This document shows, piece by piece, positions 59,560 to 64,000 of a stretch of DNA of 64,000 nucleotides; within the stretch, counting starts at the first letter, position 1; the number at the start of each line of letters is the position of its first letter. The position numbers and the translations under genes are program-made. The stretch spans positions 23,701-87,700 of the forward strand of contig CANGZW010000004.1 of the NCBI GenBank assembly GCA_947458405.1, written 5' to 3'. The notes under the pieces were generated by a model. The model worked only from the letters and a program-made list of their open reading frames with translations. It was not told where the DNA came from and searched no databases. This DNA is from Leptospiraceae bacterium. Its GTDB lineage: Bacteria; Spirochaetota; Leptospiria; Leptospirales; Leptospiraceae.

Positions 59560-60951
59560 ATGCAGAAAAATCACTCAGAAGACGAAAACTATCCACCAAT
59601 TGGTGTTGAATCATTCTCAAAAAATCCTATGTTAGATTTACAGGATTTAGAAAGTTTCAAAAAAACCTTTATTGATAGTAACAGAGGGAAACCTATCTAT
59701 TTAATAAGATTTGAACATGTTGCTGGAAAAAGTTTAATAGATTTTATCAATCTCCTAAAAAAGGAAATTCGAGCAATTATAGAATGTAAAGATTTAGAAA
59801 TTGGCTTTTATTTTATTGAAAACAAACAAAGTCTTCTTATGGGTGTAGTGCCTCACAATAACCCATTGACTGAGAGCATGCCCAATGTAGATAATTCATT
59901 TGGAAAATTTCATCAAGATTGTATTCGCAAAGGAATATGTAGTTTTGATTTTGGTATTGCGAGAACTCAGAGTAATTATATATCCACTGTTAATGAAATA
60001 TATAATGATCTATATTCGACATCTGAAAAAAATCTAAATGATAATCTTGTAAGATGGAGTTGGACGTATTTCAATCGAGCTAATACCTATATTTCTGGCG
60101 TAACACATGAAGCCATGATTCAACCAACTGTTCTCTACGATCATAAAAAAAGAACCTTTAGTGTAAAAGGTGGAGAGGTTTTCGTAGGGGGTGGTGCATA
60201 TAGGGGATACAAAGATTTAATAGATGACATTCCCGGAGACCAAGATATTAAAAGGATAGAATTATTAATTCTTGAAAAACTAATTATTGCTTGTGATAGA
60301 GCCCCCGGGCTTCTCAAATTTAATATTTCTCCCCAATCATTAATTGATACATTTTCAAATTTTGAAAAAGTAAGCCGATTTAATTTATTAATACGTTCCA
60401 GAGGATTACAACCTCAAAATGTAAGATTCGAATTGATTGAAAAATCTTATGAAGAAGAATCTGATACTCAACTAAAAGATGTATGTCAATGTTTTTGGGA
60501 TTATGGTTTTAGTTTTGCGGCAGATGATTTCGGTGTAAAAAGCTCAAGTCATCAAGTCGTACTAGACTTAGGTATCATGATTCAAGAATTTAAACTCGAT
60601 CCAATCAGTTTTAAATTTAAAGTAAAAGAAGATAAAGTAAAGTTTTTGGATAACTTAGCCTTTATTGATTATTGTAAAAAACTGGCAGATAATAGAGAAG
60701 CTGTAATTACAGCCGAAGCTGTAGAGGATATTGAAACACTAAGATTTCTATTGGCACATCAGATCTGGCAATTCCAAGCATTTATTCTCTTCAGTAAAAT
60801 AAGCATAAATCAATACAAAGATGAATTTGAAGGTCTAAAGGATTTATCCGAAGATGTCGTATTTGAAATACTTTCAGATCCTAAACTTATGAAAGAACAA
60901 AAGAAAATAGGCCATATTTTCAAAGTAGCACAAAAAAATGGACTAATCTAA
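59560..60951 (+). CDS. Degenerate GGDEF-EAL-like protein
   Basis: The 463-residue protein has no membrane segment. The second half follows the EAL fold order: IQPTVLYDHKKRTFSVKGGEVF (where EAL would be), VRFELIEKS, FAADDFG, FKLDPISFKF, ITAEAVED and FQAFILFSK. The EAL motif itself reads EVF, and other active-site positions are partly changed. The first half resembles a GGDEF fold without GGDEF (FDFGIARTQS, STVNEIYNDLYSTSEK). It may bind c-di-GMP or a partner rather than make or degrade it. Confidence 0.78.
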   Translation: MQKNHSEDENYPPIGVESFSKNPMLDLQDLESFKKTFIDSNRGKPIYLIRFEHVAGKSLIDFINLLKKEIRAIIECKDLEIGFYFIENKQSLLMGVVPHNNPLTESMPNVDNSFGKFHQDCIRKGICSFDFGIARTQSNYISTVNEIYNDLYSTSEKNLNDNLVRWSWTYFNRANTYISGVTHEAMIQPTVLYDHKKRTFSVKGGEVFVGGGAYRGYKDLIDDIPGDQDIKRIELLILEKLIIACDRAPGLLKFNISPQSLIDTFSNFEKVSRFNLLIRSRGLQPQNVRFELIEKSYEEESDTQLKDVCQCFWDYGFSFAADDFGVKSSSHQVVLDLGIMIQEFKLDPISFKFKVKEDKVKFLDNLAFIDYCKKLADNREAVITAEAVEDIETLRFLLAHQIWQFQAFILFSKISINQYKDEFEGLKDLSEDVVFEILSDPKLMKEQKKIGHIFKVAQKNGLI

Positions 60952-60964
60952 GAGATAGTATTTT

Positions 60965-62011
60965 TTATTTTAATAGGTTTTGTCTTTCTTCTTTTGAAAG
61001 TGATTTTAATTTCATAACTTCATTTTGAAAGACATTTATATTTTTATTGCTCTTTTGAAAGAGGGCATTAAAAAACTCTTCTCCAGAATTGTATCGTAAG
61101 ACACTTAAAAATGTTTCATTGTTTATCTTTGCATTTTTAAAATTTCTAGTATCAATAATTTTAAATTGATTAGATTTCTCGATAATATCTTTTCTGAAAT
61201 CTTCTATAATAATATTTTTATTTACTAACTTTTCTTCATCGGTCTTACTGGAATCGTACAATTCTTTTAACTTTTCGCCATATAATTTTACGGTTTTAAA
61301 TATTATTTTTCTTTCCTGCTTTGCTTTTATTCGTTTATCTAATATAGATAAAGATTCTTCAGAATTCATAGATTTATAGTACATTTCTGTCCCTAAATCT
61401 TCTACAAAACTTGCGTATGACTCATTAAATTTTGAATCTCCATTAAAATAAATTGTTGCATGTGCCATTTCATGAAATACAAGAGCTATTAATTCATCAT
61501 CTCTTAGTTTTAGTTGGGGAGAAAGTAATGGATCCGAAAACCATCCTAGAGTAGAGTACCCGGCAGTTATTCGCACTCTTGTATCTAAGCCCATCTCAAT
61601 CAAAGATTTTTCTTCTTCTTTTGCTTTCTCTAAATCGAAATATCCCTTATATGGCACACTCCCAACAATTGGAAACCACCAAGTATAAGAATCAAACTTA
61701 AGTGGATATGATGCCGTAACATGCCATCCAACCTCATCCCTATCTAATTTGGTAAAGTATTCATAACCTCCATTGGGATTCAAAGCTAAATTCTCTACCG
61801 CAAATTGCTTAGCCCCGGGAATCAACTCTACTTTCTTTCTTATTAAACTATCTGATTCGGATTTTAATAAATCGGAAATTCTTTGTCTATTTAAAATTAT
61901 TTGTGTTTGACCTAATGCTAAATGTCCCAGATATCCTACACAATTATAGAGCAAAGAGGAAGTAATTATTAATAATAAATATATTATTTTTATTTTATAG
62001 TTAGAAATCAA
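60965..62011 (-). CDS. Predicted zinc aminopeptidase lipoprotein (DUF2265-type)
   Basis: The 348-residue protein begins with a signal and YNC lipobox. It follows the PF10023-type predicted aminopeptidase pattern: GYLGHLALGQ at the mature start, TAGYSTLGWFSDPLLS and the zinc motif FHEMAHATIYF with ESYASFVEDLG about 20 residues on. It is presumably a periplasmic or outer membrane peptidase. It faces the EAL-like gene, with 13 bp between the stops. Confidence 0.85.
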   Translation of the reverse strand: MISNYKIKIIYLLLIITSSLLYNCVGYLGHLALGQTQIILNRQRISDLLKSESDSLIRKKVELIPGAKQFAVENLALNPNGGYEYFTKLDRDEVGWHVTASYPLKFDSYTWWFPIVGSVPYKGYFDLEKAKEEEKSLIEMGLDTRVRITAGYSTLGWFSDPLLSPQLKLRDDELIALVFHEMAHATIYFNGDSKFNESYASFVEDLGTEMYYKSMNSEESLSILDKRIKAKQERKIIFKTVKLYGEKLKELYDSSKTDEEKLVNKNIIIEDFRKDIIEKSNQFKIIDTRNFKNAKINNETFLSVLRYNSGEEFFNALFQKSNKNINVFQNEVMKLKSLSKEERQNLLK

Positions 62012-62151: not shown

Positions 62152-62232
62152 ATGGATATTGTATTGTTTTTTATTTGTATTTTACTGTCTATTTTACTAG
62201 AATGGCTAAGAGGAGATTTTTCAAATGTCTAA
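62152..62232 (+). CDS. Possible 26-residue hydrophobic leader peptide
   Basis: This short ORF (MDIVLFFICILLSILLEWLR...) is too short for the track. It encodes one predicted membrane helix and its stop overlaps the citrate synthase-like start by 8 bp, so it might couple translation or be a small membrane protein. There is no ribosome site of note. It may be chance in AT-rich DNA. Confidence 0.3.
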   Translation: MDIVLFFICILLSILLEWLRGDFSNV

Positions 62233-63505
62233 CAAAGCAGAACTGATTATCAATGGTAATAAATATGAGCTGGATATTATCCAGGGAAGTGATGGTAAAT
62301 CAGGTATAGATATATCTACTCTCTATGATAAAACAGGAATGGTTACAATTGATCCCGGATTCTTTAATACTGCCATTGGCAAGAGTAGAGTTTCCAGACG
62401 AGATGCTGAAAAAGGCGAGCTAACATACAGGGGTTACTCTGTAAGAGATCTTGCAACTAATTCCACTTTCGTTGAAACTGCCTATCTATTAATTTATGGT
62501 GATTTACCCAACAAAGATCAACTTTCAGATTTTTCCAAAAGACTCTCCAAACATTCCATGATTCATGAAGACATGATCAATCTCTTTGATGGTTTCCCTG
62601 GTGTTGCCCACCCCCTAGCAGTTTTGTCTACTATGGTAATGTCACTTTCTAGCTATTACTCTGCTGATTATGAGGAATCTGTTGACAAAGGTGTCGATCA
62701 CATATCCCGCCTCCTTGCAAAGGTAAGAACCATCGCAGCATTTTCATATAAAAAAATGATAGGAAAACCTTTCGTATATCCTATAGACAAATATCCTTAC
62801 TGTACAAACTTCCTATATATGCTTTTCTCCCTTCCTGCTGAGCCCTATGAAGTTAACCCTTATTATGATAAAATACTGAATCAGTTTTGGATATTATACG
62901 CTGATCATGAGCAAAATGTGGCAGCTACGACTGTTCAATTGGTCGGCTCCACAAAAGCTAATCTTTTTGCTTCTATTAGTGCTGGTATCTCTGCATTATG
63001 GGGATCTAGAGAGGGTGGACAAAGTGTTGCGGCTTTAGAGTTAGTAGAAGAAATTATTCGAAACAAGGGTGACCATAAGGCAGTATTAGAAAAACTTAAA
63101 ATAGAAGATTCTATTTTTCAATCAACTATCTTTGGGCATTCTGCATACAAAACAGTTAGTCCAAGAGCAATAGTTGCTAGAGAAATTTTTCATGAATTTT
63201 GTAGTAAATATGATTCTGAAATATTACAGATTGCTCTTAAAGTTGAAGAATTTGTATTAAATGATAAATTCTTTAAAGATAATAACCTCTATCCTAACTT
63301 AGAGTTTTACAGTGGAATCATTTTTTATAGTATGGGTATTCCTAAAAATATGTTCACACTCATGCAAGCTATAGGAAAATTACCCGGTTGGTTAGCACAT
63401 TGGAGAGAATTAAGAGTGGTAAGTTCAGATCACAAAAAAGCCAGACCACGACAAATTTATTCAGGTGAAATAAATCGTGTCTATACTCCAATTGAAAAAA
63501 GATAG
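62225..63505 (+). CDS. Citrate synthase homologue with altered active site
   Basis: The 426-residue protein aligns with type II citrate synthase from end to end (RGYSVRDLA, DHEQN, ISAGISALWG, SPRAIVARE, FYSGII, GWLAHW, ARPRQIYSG). However, key residues differ from E. coli GltA: His264 (HGGAN) is Glu263 (EGGQS), Asp362 (VDFYSG) is Glu360 (LEFYSG), Arg387 is Lys385, and GHR reads GHS. His305 is kept. AGGAG supports the start. It may have lost or changed its activity; an ordinary gltA would then lie elsewhere. Confidence 0.85.
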   Translation: MSNKAELIINGNKYELDIIQGSDGKSGIDISTLYDKTGMVTIDPGFFNTAIGKSRVSRRDAEKGELTYRGYSVRDLATNSTFVETAYLLIYGDLPNKDQLSDFSKRLSKHSMIHEDMINLFDGFPGVAHPLAVLSTMVMSLSSYYSADYEESVDKGVDHISRLLAKVRTIAAFSYKKMIGKPFVYPIDKYPYCTNFLYMLFSLPAEPYEVNPYYDKILNQFWILYADHEQNVAATTVQLVGSTKANLFASISAGISALWGSREGGQSVAALELVEEIIRNKGDHKAVLEKLKIEDSIFQSTIFGHSAYKTVSPRAIVAREIFHEFCSKYDSEILQIALKVEEFVLNDKFFKDNNLYPNLEFYSGIIFYSMGIPKNMFTLMQAIGKLPGWLAHWRELRVVSSDHKKARPRQIYSGEINRVYTPIEKR

Positions 63506-63527: not shown

Positions 63528-64000
63528 ATGGTTATTAAAAATACACTCTTAATATTAGGATGTATTTTCCCTCTAAACTGGATTATTCTCCGAATATTTG
63601 ACCACTCATCTTTTTTTGATTTTTCAGAAAGATTTTTATTATCAACATTTTGTTTTATAATATACTATCTCATTAAATCGAGTGATTACCCCAAAAAAAA
63701 GAACTACATAACATCCGGTTTAATATTATTATTTATATTAACATATTTTGGTATTTATAAATCTTACCTAAATCATTTTTCAATTGAAAGTGTACTCTTG
63801 AGTTTATTAATATTTATTCTTTCAGCTTTATCAATTACAGAAAAATCACTCTTATTTATTTATTTTATTTTAAACTTTTTAGGTAATTTTATTTCTTCCT
63901 CACTTAGCCTTAAAAATGAGTCTTTTATCCAATTTATAATCTCTTATTTTATTACAAATATTGGCTTTCTTATTATCTTATATAATAATATAAATGAGAA
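63528..64000 (+). CDS. Multi-pass membrane protein, 3' truncated
   Basis: An open frame starts with an ATG 22 bases after the citrate synthase-like gene and runs without a stop to the window end (157 codons). The product is strongly hydrophobic, with about five predicted membrane helices (LLILGCIFPLNWIIL, YITSGLILLFILTYFG, LLSLLIFILSALS and more). It could be the membrane part of a sensor such as a SpoIIE phosphatase or histidine kinase, but the rest is outside the window. It is not in the ORF track because it has no stop. Confidence 0.65.
   Translation, partial: MVIKNTLLILGCIFPLNWIILRIFDHSSFFDFSERFLLSTFCFIIYYLIKSSDYPKKKNYITSGLILLFILTYFGIYKSYLNHFSIESVLLSLLIFILSALSITEKSLLFIYFILNFLGNFISSSLSLKNESFIQFIISYFITNIGFLIILYNNINE

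Follow-up and report, generated by a model that had tools for sequence, protein, structure and literature searches.

A citrate synthase paralogue of the Leptospirales that lacks the catalytic histidine: a possible carboxylate-binding regulator linked to a 7TM sensor pair

Citrate synthase is a textbook enzyme, and the question raised by this locus is what a homologue of it does once residues of the active site have been exchanged. The window, i.e., the whole stretch of 64,000 nucleotides analyzed here from a Leptospiraceae bacterium (contig CANGZW010000004.1, positions 23,701 to 87,700), carries such a homologue close to its end, which we call CSpar (citrate synthase paralogue). A preliminary description had suggested that the protein is missing the catalytic His and Asp and offered three options for its role: a new reaction, a regulatory pseudo-enzyme or a different pair of acyl-CoA and keto acid. 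We compared CSpar with canonical citrate synthases, assessed its distribution and selection in the order Leptospirales, and examined its gene neighborhood.

The reading frame was intact and lay exactly where it had first been placed (Table 1), with the ribosome-binding-like sequence AGAGGAG just 5' of its start codon. CSpar covered positions 1–357 of the 357 in the Pfam Citrate_synt model (PF00285) with 347.4 bits (cut-off 27; E 1e-103), and this whole-domain match above the curated cut-off places it in the citrate synthase superfamily. Its nearest solved relatives were type II (hexameric) citrate synthases. Homology to GltA extended over the whole length, with an identity of 43–44% to the Hymenobacter enzyme and about 40% to that of E. 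coli (fold match). The structure predicted for the monomer (pLDDT 85, pTM 0.87; low confidence at the Glu264 and Arg407 loops) had the GltA fold, with TM values of 0.84–0.88. However, CSpar fell below the NCBIfam equivalog cut-offs for citrate synthase (459 vs 505 for NF004126 and 410.7 vs 485.15 for TIGR01798), by which NCBI names citrate synthases, and far below those for 2-methylcitrate synthase (252.4 vs 421.3 for TIGR01800 and 191 vs 550 for NF009006). No prp genes were found among the neighbors read, and an Rfam scan of the region gave no match.

The window ends where the contig ends (87,700); therefore, the downstream side of CSpar is truncated, and the membrane protein ORF that follows is cut by the contig end. 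On the other side, a predicted lipoprotein is encoded divergently from CSpar. Further upstream lies an EAL-domain (c-di-GMP phosphodiesterase) homologue, whose catalytic motifs appeared degenerate by eye; it is possibly a second non-catalytic signaling protein near CSpar.

Table 1. Location of the features discussed; positions are those of the window, and entries beginning with C lie elsewhere in the same genome.
Feature	Position	Strand	Basis or remark
EAL-domain homologue	59560-60951	+	weak Pfam match, 32.7 bits vs cut-off 31.3
Predicted lipoprotein	60965-62011	-	PF10023 "putative aminopeptidase" family
Citrate synthase paralogue (CSpar)	62225-63505	+	intact 426-aa ORF, ATG start
WILYADHEQN	62888-62917	+	His226 to Tyr; His229 and Asn232 retained (alignment)
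LWGSREGGQSV	62996-63028	+	His264 to Glu, preceded by Arg263 (alignments); Glu in 27/27 full-length orthologues
Glu264 codon	63011-63013	+	residue 263 of the window protein
FGHSAYKTVSPRA	63131-63169	+	His305 and Arg314 retained, Arg306 lost; expected CoA-loop positions poorly conserved (alignment)
YPNLEFYSG	63290-63316	+	Asp362 to Glu (alignment); family 16 Asp, 11 Glu
QAIGKLPGW	63365-63391	+	Phe383 to Gln, Arg387 to Lys (alignment); Lys in 26/27
KARPR	63437-63451	+	Arg407 retained (alignment)
Membrane protein ORF	63528-63998	+	no Pfam match
Canonical gltA	C31:10294-11574		all examined active-site residues intact
DISM pair	C11:28495-30384 and C111:9287-11230

In canonical citrate synthase, His264 and Asp362 enolize acetyl-CoA, His305 acts on the carbonyl of oxaloacetate, and Arg314, Arg387 and Arg407 bind the carboxylates, Arg407 being contributed by the neighboring subunit of the dimer. 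Residues are numbered here as in E. coli GltA, which anchored the multiple alignment; a further alignment was made to solved type II enzymes. Relative to the canonical residues, the window protein carried Tyr226 (His), Glu264 (His), Ser306 (Arg), Glu362 (Asp), Gln383 (Phe) and Lys387 (Arg), with Ser306 lying in FGHSAYK and WGSREGGQS replacing WGPxHGGAN around position 264. His229, Asn232, His305, Arg314 and Arg407 were retained, and three of these (His229, Arg314 and Arg407) are shared by CSpar and GltA in general. The replacements of His264, Asp362 and Arg387 and the changes of GHR to GHS and HGGAN to EGGQS, all of which had been proposed from the single sequence, were seen in both alignments; the exchanges of His226 for Tyr and of Phe383 for Arg or Gln extend that list. 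Misalignment concealing the catalytic His or Asp was ruled out, as the alignments were free of gaps near these sites and no shift brought the residues back. The suggestion that the changes concentrate on the active site also held: among 115 positions invariant in canonical enzymes, CSpar had lost 4 of the 10 in the active site vs 7 of the 105 elsewhere (Fisher p = 0.007, which is indicative only, as general knowledge guided the choice of the ten active-site positions and the sequences share ancestry).

We then considered the 27 full-length members of the CSpar family. Glu264, Tyr226, His229, Asn232, Arg314 and Arg407 were present in all 27, Lys387 and Arg263 in 26, and His305 in 25, the two exceptions carrying Asn (genome G025) and Gln (G002). 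The carboxylate-binding arginines are thus kept at 314 and 407 and exchanged for Lys at 387. Position 383 was Arg in 20 members and Gln in seven. An acid was always present at position 362, where 16 members had Asp and 11 had Glu. The preliminary claim was therefore correct for His264, which is truly replaced throughout, but overstated for Asp362, where Asp and Glu alternate as one acid for another. Positions 299–302, 306 and 309, which we presume to form the CoA site by homology to the pig enzyme, were mostly variable across the family.

A canonical gltA, for which a search of the genome had been proposed, was present in the same genome (Table 1). CSpar occurred in 29 of the 30 Leptospirales genomes sampled (G000–G029), as 27 full-length proteins and two fragments that include Glu264; the bearers include Leptospiraceae bacterium UBA2033 and other Leptospiraceae and Leptospirales MAGs. 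The sole genome of the order without it (G028) is 67% complete and yielded only a canonical fragment. CSpar and canonical GltA coexist in nearly all genomes of the order. Against a family profile, the 27 full-length CSpar sequences scored 685–764 bits and other full-length sequences at most 535 bits across 393 genomes of the phylum; the next-best match, at 535 bits, was checked and proved canonical. CSpar was not found outside Leptospirales in this 393-genome sample, nor was a close analogue elsewhere in the phylum, the best outsiders and the other two-copy genomes opened being canonical and retaining His264. When ten named genomes were searched, CSpar appeared in four, all Leptospirales. As a separate observation, G244 (L175 and L176), a genome that belongs to the phylum but not to Leptospirales, encodes a pair of strongly diverged citrate synthases, which score 360 and 328 bits and each retain His264 and Asp362.

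In a maximum-likelihood tree (quick search), all E264 sequences formed one clade with a support of 100, which grouped on the GltA side of the tree rather than with PrpC, the 2-methylcitrate synthase. A long stem makes its point of attachment to the canonical enzymes less certain. The clade splits into two subclades that correspond to two families of Leptospirales, that of the window (f1) and its sister (f2), as expected for vertical descent; CSpar is vertically inherited. The tree and the distribution ruled out horizontal transfer and a single odd MAG.

The dN/dS values of CSpar pairs were 0.013–0.070 vs 0.004–0.055 for GltA (computable pairs; the values are rough because several dS are near saturation). 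CSpar evolves faster than GltA, with identities of 72% and 85%, respectively, between the window genome and UBA2033, and it is nonetheless under strong purifying selection and clearly not decaying. Fixed loss of a catalytic residue under purifying selection, with a paralogue of the active type retained in the genome, is the pattern of a pseudoenzyme. The view that CSpar is a decaying duplicate or a sequencing artefact, for which only the absence of catalytic residues speaks, is thereby already refuted: 27 intact full-length reading frames share the fixed replacements, dN/dS is well below 1, and the clade is monophyletic. Random decay had been doubted from the outset, and these data bear that out.

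The neighborhood of CSpar in the sister family points in the direction of signaling. Gene order in f2 is rsgA, DISM1, DISM2 and, last, CSpar. The DISM pair was present in 18 f2 genomes: CSpar directly abuts DISM2 in 11 of them, lies within 0.3–7 kb of the pair on the same contig in six, and is on another contig in one (G019). DISM1 resembles 7TMR-DISM sensor histidine kinases in combining 7TMR-DISM and HATPase_c domains (Pfam). DISM2 had no Pfam match and was a whole-length relative of DISM1 by profile comparison (probability 100, E 2e-38). Unlike in such kinases, 17 of the 18 DISM1 sequences have no His at the phospho-acceptor position, although DISM1 retains ATP-binding-type motifs; DISM2 is more degenerate, and the pair is linked to CSpar. 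This order-specific tandem 7TM sensor pair, the second member being a degenerate full-length relative of the first, is found, e.g., at L104:5165-8946, with orthologues such as L154:5345-9182. Each protein has a single orthologue, at 464 bits or more in 26 genomes of the order for DISM1 and 516 bits or more in 25 for DISM2. Other 7TM sensors inside Leptospirales reach at most 303 and 240 bits, respectively, and the best matches outside it 209 and about 170 bits; DISM1 and DISM2 are thus confined to the order. Their restriction to the same order as CSpar is one shared ancestry and does not count as independent events.

In contrast to f2, CSpar stands alone in the family of the window, with the DISM genes elsewhere and no conserved neighbor. 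In four genomes, a polyphosphate kinase recognized by eye lies beside the f1 DISM pair; it was judged unrelated because it is not tied to CSpar. In two genomes (G012 and G025), CSpar was present and the DISM pair was undetected. This, along with the lack of adjacency in f1, speaks against a regulatory reading. In G025 (L164:6985-9480; G025:C267), rsgA adjoins CSpar, the sensor pair is absent, and position 305 of CSpar is Asn; this joint loss of the DISM pair and His305 is one case and only suggestive. The evolutionary rate of CSpar, beyond that of GltA, covaried moderately with that of DISM1 (partial r about 0.5) and weakly with that of DISM2 (0.1–0.2), values drawn from only 15 genomes and given without a significance test.

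We hypothesize that CSpar is an ancient, order-specific type II paralogue that no longer carries out the citrate synthase reaction and has been retained for another role, as a carboxylate-binding regulatory subunit of the DISM system. We assign this reading a probability of about 0.4. Loss of the enolizing His264, a CoA loop that is not conserved and a retained carboxylate side suggest that CSpar binds a Krebs-cycle acid and no longer makes citrate. It would not condense acetyl-CoA, and it would still bind a di- or tricarboxylate such as oxaloacetate or citrate through Arg314, Arg407, His229 and, usually, His305. Linkage to the sensor pair makes a signaling role the best guess, and from the same linkage we infer a physical partnership. 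The cytoplasmic parts of DISM1, with its kinase-like ATP-binding domain, and of the further degenerated DISM2 may read out a ligand-driven movement of CSpar, and the three proteins together would sense the state of the Krebs cycle. A broader version, in which an order-wide signaling system of degenerate enzymes employs the His264-less CSpar as a cytosolic metabolite sensor for two 7TM receptors with degenerate kinase ends and passes Krebs-cycle state to the membrane by shape change instead of catalysis, appears doubtful to us. Of the three options first offered, the regulatory one is favored and a different acyl-CoA pair disfavored because of the 7TM sensor neighborhood in f2 and the poorly conserved CoA positions.

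The invariance of Glu264 would be equally compatible with a new catalytic role for this residue. CSpar would then be an active enzyme in which Glu264 and the acid at 362 form a new acid–base pair acting on a dicarboxylate (e.g., in a retro-aldol reaction, a dehydration or a hydrolysis), using another acyl donor or no CoA at all. The strict conservation of Glu264, the acid at 362, Arg314, Arg407 and His229 is as in a working pocket, and the strong purifying selection agrees with this. However, the surroundings of the CoA loop vary, two members have lost His305, and the conserved neighbors are the sensors and rsgA and include no pathway enzymes; we consider a new reaction rather unlikely. Presence of both copies in nearly all genomes of the order, whole-length retention of the fold and the invariance of Arg407, the residue supplied in trans in canonical dimers, would also fit a regulatory subunit of canonical GltA, which would form mixed dimers or hexamers, donate Arg407 across the interface and tune activity. 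Since a pure donor in trans would not need Arg314 and His229, ligand residues in cis that are just as invariant, and since the linkage to DISM would be left unexplained, we find this arrangement improbable.

That CSpar is still a weak citrate or methylcitrate synthase is very improbable. Its homology extends over the whole length, the acid at 362 is kept, and E. coli PrpC, a member of the same superfamily, likewise has Tyr226. Nevertheless, PrpC retains both His264 and Asp362, and every canonical sequence examined has His264, while CSpar scores below the curated citrate synthase cut-offs. The identity of a methylcitrate synthase was ruled out by the scores together with position 264. From GltA, too, CSpar is set apart by Glu264, Tyr226, Lys387, Arg or Gln at 383, the variable CoA loop and the missed equivalog cut-offs.

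For the preferred reading of CSpar as a regulatory pseudoenzyme, the closest functional precedent, by analogy, is CitA of Caulobacter, which controls the cell cycle (G1–S transition) without its enzymatic activity and occurs beside a second functional synthase (PMC7083601). The citrate synthase fold, a regulatory role independent of catalysis (conjectural for CSpar) and the second functional synthase would be common to both; CitA, however, is still an active enzyme, whereas CSpar is a dedicated paralogue that has lost the catalytic His by evolution. In the literature searched, which left most subscription journals outside its reach, we found no paper that describes a citrate synthase conserved as a dedicated, non-catalytic protein.

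Automatic annotation likely labels CSpar "citrate synthase", which may put a wrong or duplicate step into metabolic models. Growth of Leptospira relatives rests on the oxidation of fatty acids into the Krebs cycle. If the regulatory reading is confirmed, two orphan membrane sensors would gain a testable ligand-binding partner, and a core metabolic enzyme would have been turned into a regulator across a whole order, including Leptospira relatives.
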